From positions 1-20,341 of the forward strand of contig FN648395.1 of the NCBI GenBank assembly GCA_000310025.1: a stretch of 20,341 nucleotides of DNA, in the 5' to 3' direction. Below are positions 2 through 20,341 of this stretch, piece after piece (the first letter of the stretch is position 1; each line of letters begins with the position of its first letter). The DNA is from Ectocarpus siliculosus. Lineage: Eukaryota; Sar; Phaeophyceae; Ectocarpales; Ectocarpaceae. The translations under genes were made by a program, and so were the position numbers. The notes under the pieces were generated by a model, which was given only the letters and a program-made list of their open reading frames with translations, was not told where the DNA came from and did no database searches.

Positions 2-3000
2 GTTGGCACAACATCAACACCAACAGGGGATAGGTGGCTCGGTCCTCGCTGGGTATCCTGCTGCTGCCGTAAGTTATTTAGCCGAGTTATGCTGGCGTGT
101 GTATGTTCGGGGCACGTAGCGGGTGTGTGTGTGTGTTTTGTTTTTAGTCTGTCGCCGGTTGGCTGGGGGCGTGATCGCTTCCTTCTCGCGCTTGTTGTCA
201 TCTTTCACTCACAAGAGTGTTCTTTTGCTGGAGATGTGCCTAGGGCGCATGGGCAGCACCGGTGGAGTACATCCCGAGAGCATGCTCGTAAGCCTCGGGG
301 GCAGGAGGGTTCATGTCCGCGCTGATCGCAACGGCGGGCGAGGGGCCGGCCGGCCCCGGCCGCGCGGCGCAGGCGGCGGCCGCGCTGAGACGAAACGCGG
401 TGGCCGCGCTCGGGGAGCTCCTGTTTTACATCGTTACGCAAGAGCCCGTCGGTACCGGCGGCGGCGGCGGCGGGATGGAGACGGAGAGGTGGAACATTCC
501 AGTCGCCGCCGTGGCGGGCGTGATCGGGAAGTGCCTGCTGGTCGTGGACGACGCCAGCGGCAGCGGTGGCGGTGGCGGCGGCGGCGGCCGGCTCGCCGGC
601 CACGAAGGGGCTCGACACTACGCGGCCAAGACCATGGAGAACGTGCTCGCGCAGGTGGGGCCTTCGCACCCCCTCGTGCCCGCCCTGGTCACGCCGGAGC
701 TGGCGCTGGGCTTGCTGGACCTTGCTAGGTGAGTTTTATTGGTTTTCTGCCGCTGCTCTGTGATTTAATTTTGTTTTTTGTATATCTTGCTCCCGTTCTC
801 GGTTGCGAGGAGGACGAGGGGCTCTCCACGACACGACACGACACGAGCGTTTGACATCCTGTGTACGGCACCAGCCTTTTGCGGCACCTTGACGCGGCTC
901 TCAGTACGAAAACACTTGGGCGCATGTCCCTTGGCCACCAACCGGGCCCCAACACTGCTGTAGCACTCTCTCGTATGACTCTCCTCGTGGGTCGTGCTTT
1001 TCCGGCCGGGTGTGCTGTGACCTTGAAGACTTCCGCCCCTCTTCTTGGAAAAGCACCGATGTGTGCTCTCTTGTCAGCGCGGGTGTTTTGGTGTAAGTTT
1101 TGAAGGGCCTCGCAGCGCAGGGAGGTTTGAAATGATGGCAGCACCGGTTGTTAATGTGCGATGGATAAGTCTCAAGATTTCCCCCAACTCGTCGCGTTCT
1201 TTCGAGGTTGACGGGAACGGAAGAGACAAATGGTCGTGTTTTGTGGATAGAACAGGACAAGCGTTTCCCCGATGTGGTTCCAACAGTTGTGCAATTCGAA
1301 TATGTCAGCAGGGTAACGATTTTACGCCCAAGCGCTTTCAAGAGCGACCCCCGACCGTACACATACCCTCAGCGATTCTGGCTCCAAATCCTGTTCACAT
1401 CCTGTAACACTGGCAATGGGTGCAAGGTTCGAGATGCAAAGTACCCCCGCTTGCTGCCTCGCAGCCTTTTTAGGTTCCAAAGGCTCAGCAGAGTTTTTTT
1501 CGTCCGTTCTGTCCGCTCGAATTCACGTCCCACCGCCGAGAACTGACCTCTCCCCCACCCGTTCGCGTGTTCTTTCTTTTCGCAGGCATGCCTCCTCCGA
1601 GAATCTTCGGCGCACGGCAACGGCGGCGCTGTACCACGTTTTCGGGCACGATATCTTGGGCGGAGAGTTCAGCCAAGACCGCGGCGACGACGACGACGAT
1701 GACGAGATCGAAGCTAGCAGAGGCATCGGCAGCGAGAGCGCAGGTCGAGGAGCGAGAAGAGGCACAGGGCGAAGAAGGAGCGACAGGGCAGGGGACGACG
1801 TGCCAGCCGCCGGTTGTGTGGCCTCCCGAGTGATGCGCGAGCCCGGCGCGCCCGAGTTCATCGTCCAGGGGCTGTCAGCGGAAGGTAGCTCTGCCACGTC
1901 CCGGCGAGCCTTTCTCGGGATGTTCAACCTCGTTGTCTGGGCCAGCGGTAACTGTGGCGGCGGCCGGTCCGTCGGCGGGCGTGGGCCGGAGGACGACGAG
2001 TTTGCTGGCGGGGGGCGGCGGAACGCCCCCCTCTTCCTCCGACGCGCGGTGGAGTGCATGTTGGACTCGCAGCACCTCCTGCTAAGGCTGCTGCGGGTCG
2101 CGGAGCACGGCGAGGGCGCGGTCCTCCGAGCGAAGGGTTTCCTCTCGCTCCGACTCGCGCTGGAGGAGGCGGCCGATCCTGGCTTTCTCCTGAAGGCGTG
2201 CCGGTCGCGCCTGCTGCCGCTTCTCGCGAGAGCGATCGGCGGCCTGGCTCCTCGGTCAGCTCCTCGCGGCCCCGCCGAGCCCGCTTCTGCCTCCGCCGCG
2301 GGTATACCGGAACTCTCCCCACAGCAGGAGTACCTCTACGAGTGCTCCACCCTGCTCGCGGAGTGGCTCTGCGCGGTACCCGAAACGGCAGCGAGGCGCC
2401 TCGCGACGGAGCTCCTACAACGCCGCGGGGTTTCCGCCGGGGGAGACGGCGTGTCAGCGACGACGGCGAGGGACGGTTGCGATGCTACGGGGAGGTGGGG
2501 GCGCCAGCCGGATCGGAGCGGCGGCCACAGGAGCGGTGGCGGCGCTCCTCCGCGGCGGTTTGGTGCCAGGCAGCAGGCATCAGCGGCAGGGACCGCCGAG
2601 TTGGAGGCTGCGATGGGGATGTTCCAGGCGGTTGTCCACCTCGTGAACAGCCCCCTGTTGCGCGAGCGGGCCGTCACGCGGCCGTTCGTGAGCGACGTGG
2701 CCGGCTGCCTAGCCCTCTCGTGCCCAGCTCTGGGGGTAGCGGCAGCGGGCACGGGCAGAGGCAACAGCGGCGGCGGCGGTAGCAGTGGCCGCAGCAGCGA
2801 CAGAAGAGCCGTGTCACCGGCAGCGGGTGGTCCCTGGAGCGGCGGCGGCGGCGGCGACGGTTCGGCAGGGTCGGTCGTGCTGGCGGCCCTTCTCCCCACG
2901 GTTGAGACCCTCGCTCAGCAGGCCGAGCTGGTTCTTGTGCCCCACCGGGGCGTGGTGTCCGCGGAGCTCATCCCTGTGCTCTGCCGGTTTTTGAGGAGCC

Positions 3001-5272
3001 CCAGCGGCGACACGCGCGCTCTCGTGGTGGCCATCTTCCGCGTCCTGCTTCCGCCGCTTGTTCGACCACAACAGCAGCAGCAGCAGTCGGGCACACCACC
3101 GCCGCTGCCACCGCCCGCCAGGCCGCAGCAGCAGCGTCTCGGCGGGCCTGCCGAAACCGCGGGGTGGCGGCCTTCTTCTTCTTCTTCTTCCCCTTCGCCG
3201 GTAGCGGCGGAAGACCTGGTGCGGTCCGCGTTTGCCGACCACCTCCTGCCGCACGCGCCGAGCCTCCTGGGCGACCACGACCCCATCCCGCAGTACACCA
3301 TCCGGCTCCTCCTCGACGTCGGTCGGGCGTGGGGAGGGCTCGGAATGGCTCTGCTGTGTTCCGGTCGCGATGACGCCGCCGCCGCCGCCCCCGTCGCCGC
3401 TGCCCTCCTAGACCGTCTTTCCGGGACACCGCTGCCAGCTGCTCTGTCACCGAGGGGGGGCACGCGGACTGGGCACGAGCCCCCTGGAGATGCCGCCGCT
3501 GTGACGACCCTCGATCCCGCTCTGGCCTGCCTCCTCTCGCTCCTCGTCGACGACGGGGCGGGGACAACGGGGGCAGGACCCGGGCGGGGTTTGCCGAGCG
3601 ACCGGCGGCATCGCCAACACGTGGCCGGTACTGTTCACTACGACGGCGACGACAGCTACCACGGCGGCGAGAACGACGACGTATTTGTCGCTCTCCTGGG
3701 CCTTGAGCTGCCGCGGCGGACGGCGGCGGCGGTGGCGGCCGCGGTGAAAGCCGGGGCGCCGGAGGTCGCGGACGCGTGTCTCGGCCTCGCCGTCGCGTTG
3801 CTGGACGCCGGAGCACGTCGCAAAGCAGCTGCGGAAGCCTTGTTGGGTCCCGTGAGCGGCACCGAGAGGGCGGCGGCGGCATCCACTTGTAGAGGCGCTG
3901 GCACTGGCGCCGCTGCTGTTACTGCTGGTGAGCAGTGGGAGGAGCAGCAGCTGAGGCCGCTGCTTGCCGCCGTTCCTTTGGCGGTGGAGACTGTGAACCT
4001 GTTCTGCGTTCAGGGCGCCCTGGCGGAGAAGCGGCGAGAGCATCAACTGGCGGGAGCACCGGTAAGGGGTCGAGAAGGGCCGGGGGGAGCGCTCGGCGGT
4101 GTCGACGACGGCGTTCGGTCGGGTGTTTCGGACTCGGCGACCTTGTTCTTGGAGATGTGTTACAAGGTGAGGGTCGTTGTTTTGGTGGACCAGTTGGCCA
4201 TACGTCGCCCGTGTGTGTTTTCGTGTGGTCGTTTGCTGTTTGTGTTCTCGCTGAAATGATGTACACAAAATAGTGATACATATGCACTTGCAAAGCTTGT
4301 GAAAAAATAGTTTCCAGCACCTGATTTTGTCAGCGTATCGACGTTTGCACCGACAATAGCTCGTTTCCCATAGTCTGTTTGGTTCGCCTTTCACGCAACT
4401 CTTCCGCTCGCCGATAGACATTTCTTTGAAGGAGAATGGTGACGTGTGTGCCTTCTCTGCACAGACTCCGTTTCCCTGACGCACGATGGACACTCTCAAG
4501 CACACGTTTCGTGTGCGGTAAGGCTGCCTGGCAGCCGGCGTTTTGACTAAACGACGGACATCTAACTACCTATCTTCTTTCCGAGACTACCCTCAGACCC
4601 ACCCCTGACCGCTCTTGCTTACCTGGACAACAACACTGGACACCATCACCTTGAAACCTCACCTTCGAGCGACCGAATTTGTTCTGTTGCCCAATCCACG
4701 ACGTCCCCGGTGCCTCTCGGGGCGGGACCCGCTTCGAAAATATTATTTTTTCGCAGATGTTCGGCGAAAGCCTCCTTCGGTCGCTACTGCTCACGTATAC
4801 CATTCGGCCTACCAGCAGCGTCTCCGGCGGCGAACCGCTCCCCTCTCTCGCTTCCGGACATGCGGCGGCGGCGGCGGCGGCAGCCCCGCAGGCCCGGGTG
4901 TTCCGCCAATTGGCCGACTTTCTCGCCTGCCCGGCCGAGGACGAGCGCCCACGGATCCGCATCCTTCGCCTCCTGCTCTCCGCGGTGTCGACGTTAGGCC
5001 AGCCCTTCTACGGCACGCTTCGGCGGGGTCCGCTTTGGACGGCGCTTCTGAGACTGGCGACTGGGCGGGGCATAGGGAGCGGGCGGGAAGCCGTGTTGGT
5101 GGCCGGGGTGGGCGGATCGGGAGCGAGAACAGCCTTGGGAGCGACGAGTGCTCTGGCCCGGGACGTCGTCGCCGCGGTTAGAGAGGACCGAGGCTACAAC
5201 GGCCCGGTTGCTGGTGCTGAGCCGCGCGGATGGAGCGGCCGCAGCGGCAGCAGCCGCGGTGAACGGCGGTGA
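2..5272 (+). CDS. ULK4: ULK4/RUNKEL-like protein, C-terminal helical-repeat region (5'-partial, spliced)
   Basis: Proposed exons are 2-68 (partial, uncertain), 305-728, 1586-4166 and 4757-5272, with TGA at 5270; together about 1195 codons. Phases agree (1, 2, 0). Exons 3 and 4 follow textbook TTCGCAG acceptors, and exons 2 and 3 end at GTGAGT/GTGAGG donors. The product is rich in Leu/Ala amphipathic helices of ARM/HEAT type. Landmarks resembling the C-terminal region of ULK4 and plant RUNKEL, recalled rather than aligned, are LGELLFYIVTQE (409-444), AAKTMENVLAQVG (about 622-660), a PEFIVQGLS...SRRAFLGMFNLV stretch (about 1850-1932) and DHDPIPQYTIRLLL (3273-3314). ULK4 is a pseudokinase linked to cilia and microtubules in animals; RUNKEL acts at the plant phragmoplast. 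The kinase domain must lie upstream if present. Long Gly, Ala, Gln and Ser tracts separate the helical blocks. It could be another ARM-repeat protein, but the order of landmarks favours ULK4. Confidence 0.65.
69..304 (+). other. Intron 1 of the ULK4-like gene (proposed)
   Basis: A consensus GTAAGT donor starts at 69. The acceptor is weak: GGGGCAG ending at 304, with no T-rich tract. It is chosen because frame 1, used by the clear coding block from about 310, has a TAA at 289, and only a phase-1 junction at 305 rejoins exon 1 without a stop. Alternatively translation begins at ATG 313 and the upstream piece is not coding. Confidence 0.4.
729..1585 (+). other. Intron 2 of the ULK4-like gene
   Basis: GTGAGT donor at 729; acceptor TCTTTTCGCAG ending at 1585. 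The split AG|G codon restores arginine and joins ...LLDLA-R to HASSENLRR in frame. The 857-bp intron holds a short GACAC tandem (about 829-846) and otherwise no feature I recognise. The reading frame of exon 3 stays open back to about 1416 inside the intron, which is chance read-through upstream of the acceptor. Confidence 0.75.
3072..3087 (+). repeat. (CAG)n tract coding poly-Gln in the ULK4-like exon 3
   Basis: Five to six CAG units encode a Gln run inside a Pro/Gln-rich linker. A (TTC)n tract at about 3173-3190 codes a Ser run about 100 bp downstream. Both lie between helical blocks, so length changes here should be tolerated. Confidence 0.7.
4167..4756 (+). other. Intron 3 of the ULK4-like gene
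   Basis: GTGAGG donor directly after the TAC AAG codons (phase 0); acceptor TTTTTTCGCAG ending at 4756, followed by ATG TTC GGC. The 590-bp intron is AT-richer than its exons and shows no other feature. The ATG that opens exon 4 is an internal methionine, not a start. Confidence 0.75.
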
Positions 5273-6670: not shown

Positions 6671-8200
6671 CTACTGCAGCACTACCCTGCCGACGACGGG
6701 GTAGCCGCACGCCTTGAACCTCTCCTCCCAGCCCGCCAGCGTCATCCTCTCGATCCGGTTCAGTCCCGTTAGCGACAGGTCATCCAGGTCGCTCTTGCCG
6801 TCTTCCTTCGAGGCCACCAGCCCCCTGGCCACCCCCCTTGATACATCGTGGCCGGGGAAGGCGGCCAACTCACCGCTCTGGTTGCGGGAGTTGCGGGCGT
6901 TGGGGGGGGTTCGGGGGTTGGAAAACGAGGAAGGCTGGTTGGTACTGGTGTGTTTTTCAAGGAATTGGCCTTCTTCTTGCTGTGGGGAATGAACAGGGCC
7001 GCTTCCGTTCCCCCAAGAGTTGGGAATAAAGAGAGACTGTTGAACGGCCACCCTTTTGGTTGAGAAACTGGGGGGGGGGGGGGGGGGGCACAATCCCATC
7101 AATTAAACTCTGTTACTGCGGCTTCAACAACGATTTACGTTCCGCGGTAGCCGTGGTTGTGGGGCTACGACATGATGGCGAAAAACAACCCACGTTGTTT
7201 GCAAAGAGGCCAAGGAAATCCAACTGCTGTGTCTACACACATAGAAATCAGACGCCTCGAAAGGAGAGAAAGCGAGTGGAATACAGCACCCTGGAGGCGA
7301 CACCACCACCACGTCCATCTTCAAGTACATGTACAGAGGTTGCATGGGATTGATCTGTAGCATCGTGACGCGGCGCGAGCTACAACGCACAAAAAACACC
7401 GTGCCAGTCATGAACAAACCAGCGACTTCAAACAAGTCACGAACGAATGAAAGAATGCGGTGTATGTACAGCGGTACTGCTGAAGTTCAACACTCGTATG
7501 CGCAAGACCAGGCAGTCACCACAACTTGGACTCTCACCGGCCCGTAGATCCCTCTCCCGTTGGACGCATCGTACACGGTGCCCCTCAGGGAGATAAATAT
7601 CGGGTGAGGCTTCCGAGAAAGGGGTGATTCACCACCATCAAAGGTGTTGAGCTCCGCAATCGTGAAGTCTCGTAGCAGCGGCCGTATCGGTTGCACCGCT
7701 GCGGTCACCTCCTCCTCCTCCCCCTCTCTACTACTGGATGCAGCAGCTGCTGCTGCTGGTGCGGGGGCAAGGCTAGATGTAGAATCTACCGAAGGAACGG
7801 ATGATGTAGAATCCGTAGGAGCGCCCACAGAAGCAGCTCGGGCAGCCTCATCGCTCCGCTGTTGCTGCGCCTCTAATGCGTCCATAGGGCAGCTGCAGCA
7901 CTCCTCTTGCTCCTCGTGCGCCGCCAGCAGCGGCTGGTCGATGCCGTCGCCCGCTGGCGGTGCCGCTGCTGATTCTAACTGCCACAGCCTGTGCTCGGCG
8001 TAGCACCACGCCCAAAATATGGCAAACATGCCTATGCCCACTGCGACTCCCCCTAGGAGGATCACGACCCTCATGGTGACCAGTTCCGCTGGCTCAGAAG
8101 CGGGAGGCACGGCCGCGGCCGGACCAACGGCGGAAACCGCTGCCACTTCCTCTGGCGTAGAGACGCGATAAACTTGAACACGTCTCAAGATTTCTCCCAT
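6671..8200 (-). CDS. Single-pass membrane MAPR / cytochrome b5-like heme/steroid-binding protein (gene A)
   Basis: Two exons, 8200-7538 and 6877-6671 (TAG at 6671), give 289 residues. The start is the first in-frame ATG, with purine at -3 and G at +4; the frame is open upstream to about 8431 but has no ATG. One membrane segment spans about residues 43-64. An acidic, Ser/Ala-rich linker follows. The MAPR domain runs from about residue 179 (FTIAELNTFDGG, PIFISLRGTVYDAS, IYGP) across the splice junction to SGELAAFPGHDVSRG, DDLSLTGL and GYPVVGRV. Known MAPR proteins (PGRMC1, yeast Dap1, plant MSBP1) are mostly ER-anchored and bind heme or sterols and P450 enzymes. Residue 225 is Leu where PGRMC1 has its heme-ligating Tyr113, so heme binding is doubtful. 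It lies head-to-tail downstream of the two-domain paralogue. Confidence 0.8.
6878..7537 (-). other. Intron of MAPR gene A
   Basis: On the minus strand the donor is GTGAGA right after the GGG CCG (Gly-Pro) codons, phase 0. The acceptor is C-rich and ends AACCAG before AGC GGT GAG. The junction rebuilds the MAPR core motif Y-G-P-x-G-x. The 660-bp intron carries a pure 19-base homopolymer (G on the plus strand, 7070-7088), about 190 bp upstream of the acceptor. Confidence 0.8.
7070..7088. repeat. 19-base poly-G (poly-C on the transcribed sense strand)
   Basis: Uninterrupted G run inside the intron of MAPR gene A. Length is prone to sequencing and assembly error. Confidence 0.9.
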
Positions 8201-9715
8201 GTCCCGTGCCTGGTGTTTCTCTACGGCGACATGGGATTGCGCCCCCAAACAGCGATCAAGCGTAGACAGCGATGCCTCTGGTCCCCCTTGAGGCCAGAAA
8301 GAGATGCCGCAGCGGACGCCTGGTCGGTCGGTCGGGTGTCGGGGTAGGTACCTGAAGAGGAGGGGCCGTCGTGCGTGACGCAGCGACAGTCCAGTCCAGC
8401 GAGAAAAACGCCTCTTTTCATGTGCGGGCACATAGTTTCAGTTTCTTAGCAAGCGGGTTGTGCGCTCCAGTGTATCGTGCACCGCATTCACGCGCCTACT
8501 CAGGATGGTACCGTTGCTTAACAATACTTCGAAGTTAAGCTGCTGTGTTACGGCGGAGAAAGTTTACCATACTTTGAGATTTCGCAGTGGATCATACAGT
8601 CTAGTCACGACAAAGTTCGGCACCAAATCTCGAGAAAACGGGCGCGCGGCGTCCGTACACCAACGTTTGCGCGTGCGAAGCGCGCGCCAGTAGCTCGGTA
8701 TAGCGACCTAGGTCTACCCGCTGCACATCGACCAAGGTTGGGGTGTGGGCTAGGGTTAGGGTTTGGGGATGGGCTAGACCAAATTAGGCTAATATTGCAG
8801 TAGCGCCCGTGGTGTAGCCTGAGGGCTGGGGAAACCTGCTTGACAGTAGTTTTGCTTTGGTTTCGTGTCTACCTCCAACCAAAACCCAGCAACTGTTGAA
8901 CTCTTGTGGTGACCGCAAACATACAAGTCGACAACGCTGGTGTGCGCACGCCGGTCCGAGAACCGGGCCACGCAGAAGAAACCCTCCGCCGTGCGCAACA
9001 ACATCAACGTCAGGCGTTGCACGGAAACCTACTTGTAGCAAACACGATGCCCTCGTACACTACCGCAATTTGGACGGCACAACAACTCTTGCAGTGGCGT
9101 CGATGGAATCACCGACATGCACTGGAAAACTACACGTAGGCAGCCCCGGAACCAGGTCAACGGTAGATAGATCGAAGAAGGACACACTGCTGTACCGCAG
9201 CGCCTTGAATTGTTTTCCTAACGTCGGCCAAGTCGGCCAAATCAGCATCTTGGTGAGGATCGAAAAAAATGGCCAGCAAAGGAAAGTAGCGGGCACTTGC
9301 ATCTTCTACGTGGGCACTGTAGACTGCCCTGCTCCTTCGAGCACGACAGGACACCACGTAGTGAACGGGACAAAACCCACCGACCCACACGGCAGTACAG
9401 CAGTAGCGGTGATTTCGCGGCCGGAGCTGTGTGCCACGGTATACAATGCTGGAGCACCACTTGGCGTCAAACCAGAGTATCGCTCCCCCATACACAACGC
9501 GAACGACCACACCCCAACTCAACGTGAAAGGGGGAAAACACAACAAATCGTCTGGTACGAAAAAAAATAACGCGCGCAGTGCAACAGCGGCGGCGGCGGA
9601 GGGGGTGGGGGCAGCGTCCAATGTTTTCACCACTCTATGCGGCAGAGACAGCAACAAGGCAATCCAACAAAGGGAAACGGTGCGTGAAAACGCGCTTTCT
9701 CGCACGGTTCACTCT
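8201..9715. other. Gap between the tandem MAPR genes: 3' UTR of gene B and 5' region of gene A
   Basis: About 1.5 kb. The part nearest 9715 is probably the 3' UTR of the two-domain gene; the part nearest 8201 should hold the leader and promoter of gene A. I see a two-unit telomere-like TTAGGG string (about 8750-8767), and a GC-rich inverted pair GGCGCGC / GCGCGCC (8641-8690). A plus-strand open frame at 8857-9570 starts with TTG and has no recognisable domain. No other gene is supported. Confidence 0.6.
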
Positions 9716-12700
9716 TCAACGTTGGCCCTGATACGAACCAAGGTCTATCCAGCCAACGACGGGATACCCTTTGCCTCCCTCCCCGAGCTTCTCCACCCAA
9801 TCGGCGAGGTTCTTTTCCTCCCGGTCCGTCAGACAAGAATAGTCCAAGACACCCTCGATGTCCTCGCTCGCCATCGACATCTTGGCCAGTACTGGAGGCA
9901 CCAACGGATACAATTTGTAGAAAAGCGCCGGGAGAGAGAGAGGGCGGGAGGCGTGTGTTCATGAAAATGATTGCCGGGTTCTCTCGACCATACAAGTACA
10001 ATAGATCTCGAAGGCGGGGAGGGGAGGAGGAGCACTGGAGCATATCTAGACTTGGGTAGCGTGAATTGTTCGTGGCATACAGGCGCCGCCGACCAGACCA
10101 CAAAAAGCAGGGATGGATCCGGGCCCCTGCTAAAACAAGCAAGCGCGGCATTCTCATGATGCCCCTTACCGCGTGAAGCGTCTCTCCCCGCGAGGCACTC
10201 GTACGGGCCGCCCTCCAGGTAGAACTCCGAGCCCCCGAAGGAAACGTCGAACACCTTGTCCTTCACGCCCATATAGATCGGCTGAGCGGCGTAGTTGCTA
10301 AAATACACAGCGTTCGCCGTCGCCTTCGCCTCCTGCTCTGGCGGCAGCGACTCGGCAGGTTGTTCTTCTTGCCGCGCCAACACCGCGGCCTGTTCTCCTG
10401 GTTCTCCCCCTCCCACCTCACGTTCTCCCCCCCCCGCCCCCGCTCCCCGTTCCGTTTCCCCGTGTTCGGACGCCGCGACATCAGCTGGTCGTCCGTCGAA
10501 AGCCCGCAGCTCGGCGCGCGAGAACAAGCGGGGGGGCGGCGGAGCGACCACCCTACCCAAGCTCGGGTAGCCGCGAGCCCTGAACGTGTCCTCCCAGCCT
10601 CTCAACGTCATCTGCTCAAAGCGGCCCAAGCCTTCGAGAGACAGGTCGTCCAAGAGGGTGCTGCTGGATCTGTCACTACGTGACGCACCGTGCGCTACTC
10701 TTCTGGATATGTCGTGACCGGCAAACTCGGAGTATTCTCCTCCCTGTTGGGGGGGGGCGGGGGCGGGGGCGGGGGGGCAACAGAGTTAACTGCCATCCTT
10801 TTTGTCCCAATCGTCAAACAATGTAGAACACCAAACGCCTCAAAAATGGGCAGCAGACAAATTTGCAGGGCTACCTCCCTCGGAGTAGCATTGCTGTTGT
10901 TGTTGCTTCTTGATTCTAGAGATCATCGCCGAAAAAACAAAACCATGGGGGAGTCCAAAATGCCGGACGTTGATCGTTGAGGGGCAACACAACTCTTTCC
11001 CGCAATACGCACGACCCCCCTGGTATCAAACCTTGGACATGAACGAAAGATGGACCTTAGAGCTACTTACGTCGTAGGCCAGTTGTCACTACTGTTGTTG
11101 CTTCCTCTTGCGAAAAGTCACACGCCGAAGATCAATAACCGTGACCGCCGTTGGGACACGAAAATAACACCAACGACTCTCTGGAGCTGATTTGGTACGG
11201 TCAACGAAACATATTTAAGGTCACATTCGGCACCGCACGGCTCCAAACCTTTGCAATACCCCAACAGGACGTGACAGCACCTCCTGCCGGGTACCACTCC
11301 CAAGGCACCTCGTCCATTTTTCGGGAAGACATCTTTGAATCCTAGAACGGTAGAGTACAAAACGACCTTGGCCAAAAATTTCAGGTCGCTGTTTCTTCCC
11401 CTGGCGTCAGGTCTGTTCTGAATGCGGCCTTGCCCCCTTCTCATGCTTTCCCGTTAGCATGGTTCGCCCGTTTCCCCCCATTTTACGTGAAAACACCATA
11501 TCTATGTTCGACGGATTCATTTTAATTTTTCCAACATGGTGCCTACCGTTTCTTAAAGGTGCTATTCAACCCGTGTTCCCGTGGATGCGTCATGCAACGC
11601 TTAAACGACCCATGTCAGGAATACCCAAGTTTGCGCCACATCAGTGCGGACGAACAGACCAGAAAAATGCTGTTGGGCCGTGAACGTCAATGAATATCTT
11701 TCAACGCACCCCTACCCTGGACAACGAGTGACCACGAGGAGCTGCTGCTCGCAGCAACGCTCCTAAAAAACAAAAACAATAAATAGTGGTTGCGGTACAC
11801 CGTCGAACGTGCTACGCGCGAAGCACCGCTGTGCTGTGCTGTGAGAGCACTTGTGCCACACCAAACCCAAAGACTTGGGGCGATTCTTTTTGCAAATCTG
11901 CGGCGAGCGTCCAAGCCCGCAGCAGGAACAGCAATCAAGCACGAGCAGGTCAAAGGAAGCCCACTCTTCCGCGAGATGAAGTTAATTTTCGCTGAGGAAC
12001 AAGAGAAACCAACAGATCTCGAAAAGCATGTTTGTTTATGACGGGAGACTTGGGTGCACACCATGCTGCACGCTTGAGGAACTGAAGCGCCTACATACAA
12101 GGACTGCTGTTTTGTCCGAGCCTCGTCATAGTCCCCATGCCGCGAACAGAAGTAGTCTTGGCGGTCGCGCCCTCTCTAAAATCAGCCAACGATGTGTGCG
12201 CACACCGGCATCACGTGCCTGAAAGCCAACCAAGATTGCGCCCACCCATCGCCGGAGGCGTGCATGCGACCGCAGTAGCAGGCTATGCATCGTCACAAGA
12301 GCCAGCACAACCAGGAGCCCTGGGTTCGAGCACACTGCGTACACCTCGTACCGGATGCTCGAAGCACCGGTCATTGTACACCACGTACAGGTCAGGACTT
12401 AAGGTTAACCCTTTTGAGTCTTCAGGCGTTCTCACTGATCATTGATTGATCATTTGCAAATGCTGGTGTAGTGGCAAGTCGTGGAGTTGCCGCCCTGCAG
12501 CCCTTCGCGCCGTGTATTGGCAAGTCCATAGGTGTGTCTAGATTATTAGCACCCGCGCTAACCGGCTGACCAATGAAGAGACTTCAGTGACAGCGGGTAA
12601 TATCAAGGTCTCGGGAATGGGAATGGGGCCAATCAATGCCAAATCATGAATCTCTCAACGTATGCACATGTCAATGAACGCGTGTGTGCATACATACATA

Positions 12701-14798
12701 CATACATACATATATATATGTTCTTTCGCAGCACCACACATACACTCGCCCGAACGTAGGAAGTCACTGCTGCAAAGAGCAGAGGGCAGCAAAAGGGAGG
12801 GGTATTGCAATCCCTGCCGAAGCCCAGATATCAAGGATATCGTGGTTCCCAACAATTTGAAAATCGTTCCCAAGATCCAGCAGTCATTGTGTCAGCAGCT
12901 ACAACGAACGCTGCAACAACACTACTACTACTGCTGTAGACGAGTAAAACATATCAGCAACACATCCACACTCGTAGCGCCACACATACCACCCTCGCCC
13001 GAACCTAGGAAACCACGAGGTACAGGTGTGTGCTGGTGGATGTGCTTGTTGTTTGAAAAACACAGGAGCTCTAGAGAGCTGGCAGGGCACATTTCGGGGG
13101 GGGACAGAGAACAGAGAAGTACAGAAGTACAAATACCAGCTATGGGTCTTCACTGATCATTTTGCCCTCTCTGGACTGATCATTTACAATATACCGAAAA
13201 TAGACTAGTTGAGGCAGCTAGACGATTGATCATTTCGAAGTCTACACAGCTAACCTGCCCTACTGACCGCAGCGCGACCACCTATCAACCCTTTTACGAC
13301 CCTGTCTGTGGCCACCACCCTGTCGCCGGCTTCTCTCATGGCCTACAGGTGGAGATAGCTGTTGCGTGTGCAGAAGTACACTGGTGTCTTTCTCTGCACT
13401 TCTCTCTCTCCCGCTCGCTCTCGCTCTCATTTTTTTTTTTTGGCGCAAACAAAAAAATCTGACAGTCCAGCCCTAGACCCAAAGGGGGTTAACATCTTTC
13501 AAAAAGTTCCAGCGTTGCGTGCCTTGAATTTTTTTTCTCGTGTCCTGTTCTCGCACACCAACATGCTGAACATAAAAACGAGGTGCTTGTCTGTTACAAG
13601 CACGATGACCACTAGACTGCTGAAGCTAGTCAGCGCTGACTAGTAGTCTGGTTGTCATCGTGCTTCTTTACAGCTGAATAATACAGTCTTGTGGTCATCG
13701 TGCTTCTTTACAGTCTCCACTCACCGGGCCGTAAAGATGTCTCCCCGCAGACGCGTCGTATACCTCCCCCTTCAGCGCGATGTAGATGGGGCGTTGCTTT
13801 ACTGCTCTGGCCTCCCCTCCCCTCATCCTCGGAGCCGAGCATCCCCCGTCAAAAGCATTCAGCTGCCGCACCGTGAAGTTCCGCCTCACCAACTTGGTCG
13901 CCTCCGCGTCTCCACCGTCCAAAGCAGTTTCGCTCCGGCCGCCCGTGTCTGTAAGCGACGAAAACGACGGCGACAAGCCAGCTCCGAACGCCGCCGCCGT
14001 TCCGGGGGCATCGCGACTAGGGGTCGAGCCCCTGTCGGGGAGTGCCGACGACGACGGCGGTGGCTTGAAGCCCTCTCTTCCCTGCCAGCCTCTCTCCCAA
14101 GGCAGCAGAGTAGTCGTGGTGGGTTCGCCGCCACCATGGTCGATCCTTTTTCCAGGCTCCCGAGCCCCCGTTGTTGTCGTCGCGGCCGCCTGGCTTCCTG
14201 GTCCTGCTGCTGTCGCACTGCTGGCGCTTTCACCGCTAAGAGGAAGATGCGATCGTTCTTCGCCGGATGGTGGTGATCGCACACAATGATTTTCCTGCTC
14301 GCCTGTTGCACCGCCGTTGTTGCCATCAGCAAGGACCTCGCTAGTTAGGGAAGCCGCAGCAGCCGCAGGGGCAGGGGCGATAACAGAGACGGCGGCAGCA
14401 GCCGCGGCATCGGCACCAGCGACAGCAGCGGACGAAGCCTCGGGATCGGCTGAAGTGCCAGCTTCAACGCCAGCACCTACCTTCCGCCGAGGAGACCGAA
14501 CACTCAGCGGGCATCTATTCGCTCCGAACAGTCCCGCGGGATGTCGCTGGGACAGCTCGTGCGCCAGCGTAACGGCCCTCGAGGAGCCTTGGTCATGCGA
14601 GGCGAGAAGAGCCTCCATTGTTCCGTCCAAGTCTCCTGCCGCCTCAAGCTCTTCCGCTCGCTCCTCGAGCGCGGCGGCAGTCGAACAACCATGGGTGATG
14701 GTGCTGGTGGTGCCTGTGCTGCTCGTGCGGCGTGACGATAACGACCCCGGTGCCCGAGATGCTTTTCTGATAGGCGAGCCACCACCACCCCCCCATCC

Positions 14799-14829
<31 letters not shown>

Positions 14830-14903
14830 ACGGCCAGAAGCACCATGCCAACCGACAAGACCTCCACCGAAACTACTTCCTCAGAAGCATCATCACTCGT
14901 CAT
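9716..14903 (-). CDS. Membrane protein with two tandem MAPR / cytochrome b5-like domains (gene B)
   Basis: Three exons, 14903-13725, 10743-10170 and 9891-9716 (TGA at 9716), give 642 residues. The start ATG has A at -3. A leucine-rich membrane segment spans about residues 20-37, nine of its Leu coming from a CTG repeat. A short helical stretch (78-119) and a long low-complexity linker follow. MAPR domain 1 covers about 343-460: NFTVRQLNAFDGG, RPIYIALKGEVYDAS, LYGP|GGEYSEFAGHDISR, GYPSLGRVV. Domain 2 covers about 466-631: FSRAELRAFDG, QPIYMGVKDKVFDVS, FYLEGGPYECLAGRDASR|VLAKMSM, GYPVVGWI. Both keep the Tyr equivalent to PGRMC1 Tyr113 (residues 397 and 574). A role in heme, sterol or P450 biology at an internal membrane is inferred from the family. 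Each junction restores an unbroken family motif, which makes the model strong despite a 3-kb intron. Confidence 0.8.
9892..10169 (-). other. Intron 2 of MAPR gene B
   Basis: Donor GTAAGG after CGC G and acceptor GCCTCCAG before TA CTG GCC (phase 1). The split codon is Val, giving the family motif DASRVLAKMS. The intron is 278 bp, with no feature inside. Confidence 0.85.
10749..10777. repeat. G-run array (four G5-G9 blocks separated by single C) at a 3' splice site
   Basis: On the plus strand four runs of 9, 5, 5 and 7 G are separated by single C residues; on the sense strand of gene B this is the polypyrimidine tract just before the AACAG acceptor. The pattern meets the usual G-quadruplex rule on the template-side strand. 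Confidence 0.85.
12689..12719. repeat. (CATA)n-(TA)n microsatellite
   Basis: About six CATA units run into a short TA tract within gene B intron 1. Confidence 0.9.
12731..13012 (+). repeat. Diverged direct repeat pair (12731-12763 and 12977-13012)
   Basis: Two copies of a roughly 35-bp block share CCACACATAC, CTCGCCCGAAC and TAGGAA in the same order, 246 bp apart, with small indels. They lie inside the TGATCATT-bounded segment. Confidence 0.7.
13591..13673. repeat. 83-bp foldback with perfect 18-bp palindromic centre
   Basis: Arms 13591-13621 and 13642-13673 are imperfect inverted copies sharing AAGCACGATGAC / GTCATCGTGCTT. The centre 13626-13643 (CTAGTCAGCGCTGACTAG) is a perfect palindrome. 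The sequence lies about 50 bp inside gene B intron 1 from its donor. Confidence 0.85.
13692..13713 (+). repeat. Extra direct copy of the foldback right arm
   Basis: Twenty bases starting GTCATCGTGC at 13694-13713 repeat 13654-13673 exactly, 40 bp downstream and only about 6 bp from the gene B 5' splice-site hexamer. Confidence 0.9.
14802..14828. repeat. (CAG)9 / (CTG)9 repeat coding part of a membrane helix
   Basis: Nine pure CTG codons on the minus strand encode Leu26-Leu34 in the N-terminal membrane segment of gene B. Confidence 0.95.
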
Positions 14904-15175
14904 GATGACGTGCGGCCCAACACAAAATACAACTCACCCCCCGCCCCCGGCGTTATCTTGGAATTTATGTACAAGGAGAGAAGTTGTTCCCCGTGCCACC
15001 GCCAGGGCAGGGCCGCCTGGGAAGAACACAAATAAGTGCTGATGAATGATGACCGAAGCGGGGAAGCACAGAGAGAACAGAGAATATTGGGGAAACGTCT
15101 TGCTGGGGATGGGCGAAGGGAGATAAAGGGAGAGAAACAACGAAACAAACCGTCTCCTATCTTGGTTCTCCTGTG

Positions 15176-15217
15176 GTTCGGATCATTGTTGGTTCGGACG
15201 GATGTTCGGATTTCGGA
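15176..15217 (+). promoter_or_regulatory. Cluster of four TTCGGA direct repeats
   Basis: GTTCGGA occurs at 15176, 15192 and 15204, and TTCGGA at 15212, in the same orientation with shrinking spacing, in the divergent promoter. Their function is unknown. Confidence 0.5.
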
Positions 15218-15316
15218 TGGTCATGTGACTTGGTACTTGGTACAAGTATGCTCACAGCTCACAGCAGTTCCCGAGCCAACAAACTGCAAGACACCTGCAT
15301 ATGAACTGATACTTGC

Positions 15317-15326
15317 ATGACGTCAT
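15317..15326. promoter_or_regulatory. CRE/ATF-type bZIP site, copy 1 (ATGACGTCAT)
   Basis: Perfect 10-bp palindrome containing TGACGTCA, the classical CREB/ATF binding core. It lies about 400 bp upstream of the mEAK7-like start. Binding is inferred from the consensus. Confidence 0.5.
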
Positions 15327-15334
15327 CGAACCTT

Positions 15335-15347
15335 CATAAAATATTTT
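15335..15347. promoter_or_regulatory. AT-rich TATA-like box between the two CRE-type sites
   Basis: CATAAAATATTTT stands out in a GC-balanced setting midway between the bZIP palindromes. It could be a core promoter element with a leader of about 350 nt for the mEAK7-like gene; this is weak evidence. Confidence 0.25.
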
Positions 15348-15355
15348 TCCAGGAG

Positions 15356-15365
15356 ATGACGTCAT
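15356..15365. promoter_or_regulatory. CRE/ATF-type bZIP site, copy 2 (ATGACGTCAT)
   Basis: A second identical 10-bp palindrome, 39 bp from the first (start to start). Confidence 0.5.
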
Positions 15366-15722
15366 GTCCTCCTCTCTCCGATGTCTCCGAGGCTGCTGTC
15401 TGTCTCTCCTATTTACTACACTCACCACTCACACCTCTACGATAGTCAACCAAAACACACAACGCATACCATACGGGGAGACCTACGACTACCACTGCAG
15501 CGAGAGGGAGAGAAGGACCTCCTAACGAGACCACACGAGGCCTAGTTAGGAGTGTCGCGCCGTCGGCGGCGGCGACAGATCAGCTAGCTTCTCGCACCCA
15601 ACAAACTGCAACTGCTGGTGGAGGATCCAGGTGTTTCTCGCTGGGTTGCCTCCTTCCGATACCCCGCCTCCCCGAAATTCCGTGAAAAAGTAAAAGAGGC
15701 CTGAAGTTCCCGAGTAGCGCAA

Positions 15723-18700
15723 ATGGGCTGCCACGCGAGCAAGCAGGCTAGCCTGAGCGGGGAGATTCGGTCGGAGGAGCTAGCCAAGTGCGCCGCGGTT
15801 TCGGGCGAGGTGCGATGGGTCTGGCTCAGATCACGGTCTCTCTTCAGCTTCGCTGAACTTCGCTCGCTCTTCAAGCAATTCCAAGCAGCTCTGCGAGCGT
15901 CGTCACAGCAGCAGCAGGAGCAGCCTGGTGAACTTCAATACCACGACCTGCTCGGCGCCGCGTCCCAGGCGGCGCCCGTCTGCAGCGTGGAGGCCATCAA
16001 AGGGGGCGGCCGAGCTCCGTCGTACGGCGGCGCGCCGGGCTCGGCGATGAGCAAGGCGCAGTTCCTGTCGCTGTGCGAGTCGAGCGACGCGTTTCGTTTG
16101 TCTGAGGTGGTCGGCGCCTTCGGGTCACGGCTCTTCGATGTCCTCGACGCTAGCGGCGTTGGGTTCCTGGACTTCGAGACCTTCGTGCTCGGGCTAAGCA
16201 AGCTGCTCAAGGTATGTGCATTTATGGCGTGGTGGTGTTTTTCGGTGAAAGTTGTTGGTTCATTTTTTAGCGGGCGGTTGTCCAAGCAATTGTACAGAGA
16301 GATAGATGCACCTGCTGTCCTGAGGCACTCAGTTGTTTTGTAAACTCCACGGGTAAGCATCAGTAGTCATGCAAAAAAACGCCCGCCGGCGCTTTCATCT
16401 ACGTGAAGCAGCAGCAGCAGCAGCAGCAGCGTCCAAAAGGTTGTTGTGTTGTTGTTGCCTCGCGCCTGTGATGACAACCCAAGAAGCTTCCCTTCTAATG
16501 TGACAAGATTGCGACCGGTCTCTTTGAACCGACTGACCGCTGCCGCCTCTTCAAAAGGCACTACACCCGGCATCCTCCCGTGACATCTGTACGCCGACAT
16601 AGCAGCACGGGGCCGTAGCCTTGTGGGTAGATTTGGCGCCTTCTTTCATTCCCTGTGTGGAGTAGGAGTCGAGCGGTCCCCAGGGGCAACAATGCGTTTC
16701 ACCATCCAGTCCTCCCCGTAACATATATGTATGAAGCCGCTGCTCTCCTCGCCTAGAAATCGGCCTGGAAATCACCTTGTATCGATTTTGGATACTTCAT
16801 ACATGGTACATGCAGTCAGCTGCACCAGTATGGACATCAGTAGTGAGCGGAGAACGGAACGTTTTTTTGAGGTGAAGACAACACCAACAACAACAACAAC
16901 GAACCAGCAACGGCGGCAGAGGAGTAGCAGAGAGTATTCTAGGATACAGCAGTAGCAGGACGGTGGGGACGCGACTTTACCTTGCACTTGCTGTTCAACT
17001 TGCAGACAGAATCTCGCTGTATACCATGGAGGAAGGATCGCAGGGGACTCAACACTTCTGTGCCTACACCGCCGCCGTGTACCTACGGGGCTTCCCTCTC
17101 TGTTGCACCCGGCTCGCCTTGTAGTCCTTGGGCGGACATAACATACATAGCCGACCGCCATGTGCCGCGGCGATTTCAGATAGGCCTCCTATCACAGGCG
17201 TGTTACTTCATGTAGTTTTAGCTGGAGGCGGTAGTATACCGCCGCAAGGAGTCGCATAGCAAGGCGCTTCCATCAAGTAGCCCAAAAGGGACACGTGGCC
17301 GAAGGTTATTGAAGGGTCTTACCCAACTTTTTTTATGTATGTATCGCCCCGAAATTGCCGCGAGGACGCGGTGTGTGCTGACGGTGCGACGACCATTGGG
17401 CTATTTACCCCAATACTGTTGAATTTTGTTCCCGGCCGGGTCTTGGCACAAGATTTGGTTGGTTAGAGTATACTATCCAAACCATCCCCCGCACACGAGT
17501 TTGCATCCGTTCGCACCCTGTCGGAAGGAATCGATTGTTTGCCGCCGTTGCAAGTAATGGGTAGGTGTGGTTTTTGTCCCCCACCTGCTACGGCACCAGT
17601 TCTACGTGCGCCTTTCTGTATAACCTTCATGTGTGTCAGGAGCAGCGTTCCCCAGCCCGGACATTCTTCTCTTCTTTATTGTTGTTACCCTGCTGCTTCA
17701 TGTACCTCCGCCCGCCCTTCGATTTTTTCGCGAGAAGGGCGGTCCCTTTTTGTGTATTCATTCACGAGTACACCGCTAATTCGCCGCAGAGTTGACAAAA
17801 TTGTCCGCTCCCACGAGAGAGTGGAACCCAGGGCCTGCTTCCCACGGCCTGCAGATACTACTGGTACCTGGCATGATGCAGGCTTACGAGGTTACCGTGC
17901 GCACTAGACCACCGGTTCGGGACAAACAGCAGTGTAGGGATTTTAAACCGGAGTCTACCTAAAGGGGGAGACGCAGAAAACAGCACCGCCCGCGACCACC
18001 ACAAGACCGCCTCCAGTCCGGCACCCGTCAGTGGCACGAATCATACGCGTATGTATGTTCTTCCTTCCGCGTTTGTGATGGAATGGAATGCATTTTGATG
18101 CCGGTGCCATGCCCAAGCCGGTCCACCCCAGTGGCAGTTGAAGGCTCTGGGCACTGATGAATAAGTGTGTGCTCTTATGTGCGACGGCTAGCACGCACGG
18201 CCCTTGGAGCTTGCCATGGATAGTTCGGGGGTCGGTGCAGCTCCTTCTCCCAGTAGTGCTGAACGGCTTGGTGGAATCTGATGATCTCCATGTCGGAATA
18301 TAGTTGTCGGAACATTCCTCGGGTAGGTGCAGCCCTGCGCAGTAACCCAGCGCCGCGGCTTGCCGCGACCCACCAATCTACCCACCAGCGGTTTCTCGGG
18401 CTATATACTGTCAACTCTGGGGGTGTATCCAGGAATTTTCCACAACCACTGCATTCGATCAAGTCGTAAGCACCCCTCCCCCTCGATCGGTTCGTGTTTC
18501 TGTGTGTCCGTTAGTCTCTCGCCCTGTCTCAAGTGTTTCCTTCGTGTGAATCACCCCCCGACTGGACCTCTTGCCACTGCTGTTACAGTATGTAGGGGTA
18601 TGCGGTATTCATCTTGCCGTGCCAGTGGATGGGTGTGCGGGGCGAGGTTAGGGTGCCGGCGTCCTTTCCTGCCACGTCCTTTCTTCGCCGTTGTTTGCGA

Positions 18701-19617
18701 GTTGGGCTTGCCCGTGTCCTCCCTTTCGTTCCCAGACAACGCGGATGTTCTCCTCCGAGCTCCCTGAAGTGTTTTGTGTATGAGAACCAGATGAGAACCT
18801 CTTCCCAAACGATAATCTCGCCCCCGCGTTTCTCCTCCTGGTCGGCCTTCTAGCCCACACCCAACAATGCGCGGGCCTGCCTGCCTTCTTGGCATTGAGA
18901 AGGTCTGCGAATGACTCAGCACAACCTGTAGGTCAAGTTGGAGAAAGAATGGCGCCGGGAGAGAGTTGGGTTTGTCGTGCTTCTGACACCGGTCGCCAAC
19001 ATCTCCACGCCAAGAACCGATCCGATCCCGACACACGCACCCCATGCTCTCTCAGCCGAGATGTTAGAACGCAACTTGTAGTTCTTCTCCCGCTCGACCC
19101 TCTCGTTGTTTCTTTCCCTCCTCCGACTTTTGTTGTTTGTTCCCACCCGACTTCTCCCAGCCGTTAACCTTCCCCGCTTTTTTCGTGTCCACCTTGATCA
19201 GGGACCAGAGAAGGAGAGGCTGAAGCTCCTATACTCCGCCTACGACCTGTCGGGAGTGGCGCCCAGCGAAGAGCGACGGAAGTCGAGCCAATCGAGCGGA
19301 GGCAGCAGCAGCTTGAGCGGCGGCAACGGCACCGGCGGCGGCGGCGGCGGTGGTGGCAGTGGCAAGGTCAAGCCGTCCCGAAGGAGCAAGTACCTCACCC
19401 TCGAGGACATCACGGCCGTCCTCGCCAGCGCCTCGCAGACGGCGGCCTACCCGGCCCTCTTGAGCTTCACCACGGACGGTAAGGGCGGCATGACCACCGG
19501 CCACCTCAGCGGCGGGGGGCTTATCGGCGGTGGCGGAGGTGGCACCGGCGGCGATGGCATGTTTTGCTGCAGCTGCTGCTGGTGCTGCACGGGCTGCAAC
19601 GGCGAAGGCTGCAGCGG

Positions 19618-19670
<53 letters not shown>

Positions 19671-19825
19671 GCGGCGAGAACGACGGCGGCTTGTGTGGTG
19701 GTGGAGAGTGCAGAAGAGGGGCGGAAAAATCACCCCGAAATGGGGGGGAGGGTGGGCTCCCGTCTAACCAGGACAGCCTTAGAAATAGTGGGGAAGGAAG
19801 AAAGGAGGCGTGCGGCGGGGGAGGA

Positions 19826-19861
<36 letters not shown>

Positions 19862-20109
19862 CGAGGCAGCAGCGCCAGGGTTAGCAGCGACCCGGAAGCG
19901 CTGGCGGAGCTCCTCCGAGATATGGCGCAGCGGAACGCGGAGAGATACGCAGTGGCGGCGGTGTCGGAATTCGGCCAGGCGCAGGGGGGCACCGGGCTGA
20001 CCCAAAAGGAGTTCGAGAAGTGGGCCCTGACCGGCCCCGTCCTTCGGTGCCGCATCAACGAGTTCTCGATAGACCTCAACCTTGCCCCTTTCCAGGGGGT
20101 GCGGCTGTG
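15723..20109 (+). CDS. N-myristoylated EF-hand-like protein, mEAK7/TLDc family candidate (3'-partial, spliced)
   Basis: Exon 1 is 15723-16211 (163 codons, phase 0) and exon 2 is 19202-20109 (ends phase 2). The start MGCHASKQ is a classical N-myristoylation signal (Gly2, Ser6, Lys7) with Cys3 for palmitoylation, so membrane attachment is expected. An EF-hand-like unit ends exon 1 (FDVLDASGVGFLDFETFVLGLSKLLK region, residues 138-163) and continues as GPEKERLKLLYSAYDLSG in exon 2. After a low-complexity stretch come LAELLRDM (about 396-403) and TGLTQKEFEKWALTGPVLRC. The order (acylated start, degenerate EF-hands, this segment) resembles animal mEAK7, a lysosomal mTOR-linked TLDc protein; the TLDc domain would lie downstream. 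EF loop 1 has Val at position 5 and Thr at position 12, so calcium binding is doubtful. The alternative is another calcineurin-B/CIB-like EF protein. Confidence 0.65.
16212..19201 (+). other. Intron 1 of the mEAK7-like gene (2990 bp)
   Basis: Donor GTATGT after AAG; acceptor CCTTGATCAG before GGA CCA GAG, phase 0. The join gives LSKLLK|GPEKERLKLLYSAYD, the usual spacing between paired EF-hands. The intron contains a (CAG)7 repeat (16409-16429), a CAA-rich stretch (about 16878-16903), a short perfect hairpin GGCGGTA-GTA-TACCGCC (17228-17244) and no recognisable gene. Open frames are short and mostly lack ATG starts. Confidence 0.7.
16409..16429. repeat. (CAG)7 intronic microsatellite
   Basis: Seven pure CAG units in intron 1 of the mEAK7-like gene. 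Confidence 0.9.
19619..19666 (+). repeat. (GGAGCC)8 hexamer repeat coding Gly-Ala
   Basis: Eight exact hexamers in frame in exon 2 of the mEAK7-like gene, encoding alternating Gly-Ala after a Cys-rich stretch. Confidence 0.95.
19828..19860 (+). repeat. (CAG)11 repeat coding poly-Ser
   Basis: Eleven CAG units, read as AGC, give a run of ten Ser in the mEAK7-like exon 2. The same repeat unit codes Leu in gene B and Gln in the ULK4-like gene. Confidence 0.9.
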
Positions 20110-20341
20110 GTGAGTGTGAAACGGGTGGTCCCTAGGAAGGGCGTGCGTTCGGCTAGTAGGCTGTGTGTCTTCCGGCGGCGGGGTGGTGTTCTCTTCTGTG
20201 CTCTTCTCGTTGTCTTATCGGGTTCTTGGTTGAGGCGTGGGTGTGGTGGGAACGCGTGTTGAGGGTGGGCGGAGGAGGGGTTATATGGGAGAGTGTTCAG
20301 TGGGGGGGGGGGGGGGGGGGGGGGGGGGGAACAAATTTTTT
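20110..20341 (+). other. Start of intron 2 of the mEAK7-like gene (runs off the window)
   Basis: A consensus GTGAGT donor begins at 20110 and would leave the reading frame in phase 2; without splicing, TGA follows at once. The remainder is G/T-rich and ends in a 28-base G run. Confidence 0.65.
20302..20329. repeat. 28-base poly-G run at the window edge
   Basis: Uninterrupted homopolymer in the putative intron. True length is uncertain for technical reasons. Confidence 0.9.

Follow-up and report, generated by a model that had tools for sequence, protein, structure and literature searches.

A gene on the minus strand of contig FN648395.1 of the brown alga Ectocarpus siliculosus quite probably encodes one membrane-anchored protein, in which a predicted N-terminal signal anchor and a long flexible spacer precede two non-identical MAPR domains in tandem. 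The window, i.e. the whole stretch of DNA that was analysed, comprises 20,341 nucleotides. Within it this gene, designated gene A, was modelled with three exons, and a second gene with a single MAPR domain, designated gene B (about 8200–6671, minus strand), sits downstream of it. The tyrosine equivalents given below refer to human PGRMC1. The features of both genes are the following:

9716–14903, minus strand: gene A, three-exon model.
13725–14903, minus strand: gene A exon 1, with the start Met, the hydrophobic segment, a low-complexity stretch and the first half of domain 1 up to ...HLYGP.
14802–14830, minus strand: CTG repeat, 9.7 copies on the coding strand, which accounts for the run of leucines in the predicted membrane segment.
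10744–13724, minus strand: gene A intron 1, 2981 nt, GTGAGT...CAACAG.
10170–10743, minus strand: gene A exon 2, with the second half of domain 1 (GGEYSEFAG...GYPSLGRVV), the linker APPPPR and the first part of domain 2 (FSRAELRAFDG...AGRDASR).
9892–10169, minus strand: gene A intron 2, 278 nt, GTAAGG...CTCCAG, phase 1, after DASR.
9716–9891, minus strand: gene A exon 3, with the end of domain 2 and the stop codon.
10546–13877, minus strand: MAPR domain 1, residues 343–459, spanning intron 1; Y391, Y397 and Y452 are the equivalents of Tyr107, Tyr113 and Tyr164.
10528–10545, minus strand: inter-domain linker APPPPR, residues 460–465, six residues.
9749–10524, minus strand: MAPR domain 2, residues 467–632, spanning intron 2; Y568, Y574 and Y627 are the equivalents of Tyr107, Tyr113 and Tyr164.
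7538–8200, minus strand: gene B exon 1, with a hydrophobic segment and the first half of the MAPR domain up to ...GIYGP; the start was taken at 8200 and is uncertain.
6671–6877, minus strand: gene B exon 2, with the second half of the domain (SGELAAFPGHD...GYPVVGRVVLQ) and the stop codon.

The minus strand was read over 9000–15600, and splicing of 14903–13725, 10743–10170 and 9891–9716 yields a product of 642 residues with a single stop at its end. Both introns are of the GT-AG type and the exon joins are in frame, exon 1 closing at the phase 0 donor GTGAGT. The site of intron 1 lies exactly between HLYGP and GGEYSEF, and since the plant protein represented by PDB entries 1T0G and 1J03, which we take to be a steroid-binding protein of the MAPR type, aligns across this site without a gap, the join of exons 1 and 2 is backed by homology in addition to the splice signals. 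No stop codon occurs in exon 1 in the frame of gene A, versus 10 and 13 in the two other frames of the minus strand, and the same holds for exon 2 (none versus 4 and 7). Exon 2 had been read in the first-pass annotation as running unbroken from the end of domain 1 (GYPSLGRVV) into the start of domain 2 (FSRAELRAFDG), and the absence of stops confirms this reading. When the dinucleotides were shuffled 2000 times, exon 1 never stayed open and exon 2 did so 10 times; the plus strand of exon 2 is open as well, over 168 codons at 10177–10683. Because of these open shuffles and plus-strand frames, the openness of exon 2 taken by itself is moderate evidence, and stronger support comes from homology to either side of the domain junction. 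The start codon, splicing and transcription of gene A are predicted from sequence. Within intron 1, positions 13598–13713 hold inverted repeats of 22–24 nt (88–95% complementary) along with a direct repeat of 29 nt, which may constitute a small fold-back element.

Methionines are found in the gene A product at positions 1, 20, 96, 360, 438, 551, 589 and 591. The stretch from residue 459, where domain 1 ends, to residue 467, where domain 2 begins, contains none, and neither does that between Met438 in domain 1 and Met551 in the core of domain 2. Translation of a complete domain 2 standing alone could therefore be initiated only within domain 1, from Met438 or an earlier methionine, and separate domain products would need a start within domain 1 or internal splicing. 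The two domains could be imagined to lie on separate transcripts with the open frame between them being incidental, given that the region is GC-rich, that long open frames occur in it on the other strand too, and that some of the exon 2 shuffles remain open. Such a pair of genes is improbable, however, since the second half of domain 1 is itself located in exon 2, which continues in frame into domain 2, and since a methionine is missing between the domains. The signal AATAAA, in whose place this organism may use another, is moreover absent from the minus strand of 9716–14903; it occurs four times across the whole window, a number reached in 34 of 100 shuffles. A bacterial-type scan of 9716–10800, whose model is not applicable to a eukaryote, returned no promoter-like and one terminator-like site (0.8 expected).

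That a single predicted membrane-anchored protein carries two MAPR domains had already been suggested in the first-pass annotation, together with a search of the 642-residue product with a Cyt-b5 family profile as a means of checking it. In the Pfam scan of the gene A protein, carried out with E values up to 1, PF00173 (curated cut-off 23.7 bits) was the sole family and matched two stretches, with 48.4 bits and an E value of 1e-12 for the whole protein; these two stretches and the PDB matches support the suggestion. Scored alone, domain 1 reached 30.8 bits, above the cut-off, and domain 2 reached 22.9 bits (E 8.8e-5), just under it. Among PDB sequences the plant protein was the best match to both domains, with E values of 2.2e-16 (1J03) and 2.7e-16 (1T0G) for domain 1 and of 6.5e-15 and 7.7e-15, respectively, for domain 2; PGRMC1 (4X8Y) matched at 2.1e-9 and 7.8e-9. 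A profile built from the three domains of the window (domain 1, domain 2 and gene B) matched the plant protein at 4e-23 and PGRMC1 at 1.5e-16, so that 1J03/1T0G and 4X8Y rank first for either domain and for the profile. Classical cytochrome b5 shares the Pfam domain PF00173 with both domains of gene A, but its entry 6NZX gave E values of 0.17 with domain 1 and 0.38 with the three-domain profile and was not matched by domain 2. The HPGG motif is the mark of cytochrome b5, and it is absent from the 642-residue product. Judged by their sequences, both domains of gene A are cytochrome-b5-like domains of the MAPR type, nearer to MAPRs than to cytochrome b5.

Alignment of five sequences (domain 1, domain 2, gene B, the plant steroid-binding protein and PGRMC1) demonstrated that Tyr107, Tyr113 and Tyr164 of PGRMC1 all face tyrosines in both domains of gene A. 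The claim made earlier that the Tyr113 equivalent is kept in both domains thus holds, the residues being Y397 and Y574. Lys163 of PGRMC1 faces arginine in domain 1 and lysine in domain 2, and one extra glycine stands ahead of the Tyr164 position in domain 1, domain 2 and gene B. Hehenberger et al. 2020 are said to define MAPRs by an insert between helices 3 and 4; the segment from AGxDxSR to the helix that contains the W shows few gaps when set against PGRMC1 at the level of sequence. Domain 2 additionally contains a low-complexity insert of about 69 residues (about residues 478–546).

In its N-terminal part the gene A model is less secure. By hydropathy, and from a predicted start codon, a hydrophobic segment lies within residues 7–45, where 19-residue windows exceed 1.6 from residue 7 and peak at 3.22 at residue 15. 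A second, weaker hydrophobic run is found at residues 158–186, with windows just above 1.6, so a single membrane pass of the protein is not certain. The CTG/CAG microsatellite at 14802–14830 might differ in length among individuals. A low-complexity spacer of some 300 residues (about residues 38–342), which stayed open in 3 of 2000 shuffles, connects the hydrophobic segment with domain 1. Its GC contents at the three codon positions are 0.66, 0.69 and 0.59, and those of the domain 2 insert 0.83, 0.57 and 0.61, neither having an excess at the third position; the corresponding values are 0.58, 0.54 and 0.70 for domain 1 and 0.62, 0.40 and 0.81 for the domain 2 core. The predicted translation of the spacer is based on its open frame, with codon-position GC unlike that of the domains, and the real spacer could be shorter, for example if exon 1 were spliced internally. 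The missing third-position excess in spacer and insert, as well as the microsatellite nature of the Leu run, would also suit a degenerating or misassembled fusion from which no functional protein is made. Such a fusion is nevertheless very improbable in view of 642 codons free of stops and frameshifts, the MAPR residues conserved in both domains, and the third-position GC, which is raised in domain 1 and in the core of domain 2.

Gene B comprises, besides a hydrophobic segment and a stretch of low complexity, a single MAPR domain, for which the PF00173 score was 20.2 bits, below the cut-off of 23.7. Its hydropathy peak is 2.45 at residue 45, a value of hydropathy only that depends on a predicted start codon. 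Gene B resembles gene A in its N-terminal hydrophobic segment and in its phase 0 intron, the exon 1 donor GTGAGA coinciding in position with that of domain 1, after YGP. Of the domains compared, that of this adjoining gene, which the first-pass annotation does not mention, is nearest to domain 1 (58.4% identical over 89 positions), and the locus is therefore a small MAPR cluster. At the position of Tyr113 gene B has leucine (TTG, 6868–6866), and at that of Lys163 cysteine. The Tyr113Phe mutant of PGRMC1 gave no response to haem in gel filtration according to the accessible text of its structural report (PMC4802085), and gene B is for this reason unlikely to bind haem as PGRMC1 does; by analogy, its leucine would make it a natural counterpart of that mutant. 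Haem binding through other residues is possible in gene B, and neuferricin, another MAPR, may use aspartate in place of tyrosine, as stated in the accessible part of PMC5366339.

The two domains of gene A are only 33% identical to each other over 84 aligned positions, versus about 50% to the plant protein (domain 1, 50.0% over 82 positions; domain 2, 49.4% over 81), and an origin of the pair by recent copying of a single domain is rejected on this ground. The introns speak against such copying as well: the phase 0 intron after YGP is common to domain 1 and gene B, whereas that of domain 2 has phase 1 and lies elsewhere. An unrooted tree of this small set of five sequences places domain 1 and gene B on one side, and domain 2, PGRMC1 and the plant protein on the other, with a support of 100. 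Domain 2 also has the same AGRDASR motif as PGRMC1, at which domain 1 has AGHDISR and gene B PGHDVSR, and the identities with PGRMC1 are 38.6% for domain 1 and 42.3% for domain 2. The view of domain 2 as the canonical type and domain 1 as the diverged one was dropped, because the two do not differ in their closeness to the plant protein, with alignment scores of 180 (domain 1) and 163.5 (domain 2); since the identities are 50.0% and 49.4%, neither domain can be called canonical on this ground.

A domain-1-type gene was probably duplicated in tandem to give this locus, and another MAPR domain was joined on; in the order of events that we infer, the duplication would have come first and one of the copies would then have been joined to the second domain. 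The reverse order, an old fusion of which copy B later lost domain 2, is conceivable, although a search for domain 2 over the window by tblastn revealed no convincing remnant of it behind gene B. Outside the matches to genes A and B, that search gave as its best hit a low-complexity stretch at 19655–19708 (E 0.023), and a match of 29 residues (E 0.90) fell within the intron of gene B, at 7342–7256.

Elsewhere in the window, the open frame 1317–4259 on the plus strand matches PF23606, the HEAT repeats of ULK4-like kinases, with 74.5 bits against a cut-off of 27, and that of 15705–16343, also on the plus strand, has a weak EF-hand match (E 0.036) below the cut-off. The open frame 19082–20113 has no Pfam match, and the Rfam and tRNA scans of the window gave no matches.

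Expression, membrane topology, haem binding and partners of the gene A protein are matters that we infer. The N-terminal signal anchor would hold the protein, so that the long spacer and then both MAPR domains would be placed on the same side of the membrane. Haem iron is ligated by Tyr113 in PGRMC1, while Tyr107, Lys163 and Tyr164 form hydrogen bonds with the propionates, as described in the accessible text of PMC4802085; each domain of gene A would most likely bind haem via its conserved tyrosine. The protein would then act in the way proposed for other MAPRs, as a membrane-held partner in haem or sterol pathways, for example of cytochromes P450, and the tandem would set two haem sites of differing properties on one anchor. 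Gene B, having leucine instead of the ligating tyrosine, would correspond to a paralogue of domain 1 with little or no haem.

PGRMC1 forms dimers through the stacking of its haems, and the accessible text of PMC4802085 suggests that conserved residues may extend this mode of dimerisation to other MAPRs. With Tyr113 equivalents present in both domains, the tandem of gene A might represent an intramolecular version of that dimer, in which Tyr-bound five-coordinate haems lie face to face in one chain. This arrangement is unlikely, however, as the stacking structure is that of human PGRMC1, the two domains are 33% identical, and domain 2 carries its long insert. It is also made uncertain by the short linker of six residues: in the b5 fold both termini of the chain are situated away from the edge of the haem, and a face-to-face pair would thus be hard to close with so short a connection. 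A somewhat bolder proposal, and an unlikely one, is that two different haem sites on one anchor pair within the chain and are regulated by the linked paralogue lacking the haem ligand, which would give a genetically fixed hetero-pair versus the reversible homodimer of animals. If expressed, the two-domain protein would provide a covalently linked pair for testing whether MAPRs need two adjacent haems; otherwise it adds one further domain architecture to a common family.

Relatives of the gene A architecture were sought in viral, bacterial, archaeal, phage and plasmid collections, the contigs being scanned with one to six short patterns each. In viral contigs the query with the two-domain protein gave 22 pattern stretches and the two alignment queries 102 and 189, none of which was confirmed, and the same was true of the 67 and 38 stretches from two scans of bacterial and archaeal genome contigs. 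Phages and plasmids gave no match by tblastn, the plasmids being searched with the domain 2 core only. Given the make-up of these collections, the result says little about eukaryotes. Open-licence literature on tandem or paired MAPR or cytochrome b5 domains yielded one paper, on desaturases, and no tandem MAPR, and an earlier report may exist elsewhere. As far as the accessible parts of the respective papers go, the four human MAPRs have one such domain each (PMC5366339), Toxoplasma has a single MAPR (PMC10499268), and a survey in one oomycete, with 11 members of the cytochrome b5 superfamily, names other fused domains but not a second MAPR domain (PMC8655872). While the MAPR domain itself is known and common, the feature that appears to be unusual here is the predicted succession of two different MAPR domains end to end in one chain.

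The plant chains 1T0G and 1J03 have 102 and 109 residues and give one match each, whereas the chain of gene A combines two domains with a long spacer and an insert. Gene B likewise has one domain, with leucine at the Tyr113 position, in contrast to the two domains of gene A, both of which have tyrosine there. PGRMC1 (human, 4X8Y) has Tyr107, Tyr113 and Tyr164 in common with both domains of gene A; however, it consists of one domain and lacks the extra glycine before Tyr164, while gene A has two domains, each with that glycine.
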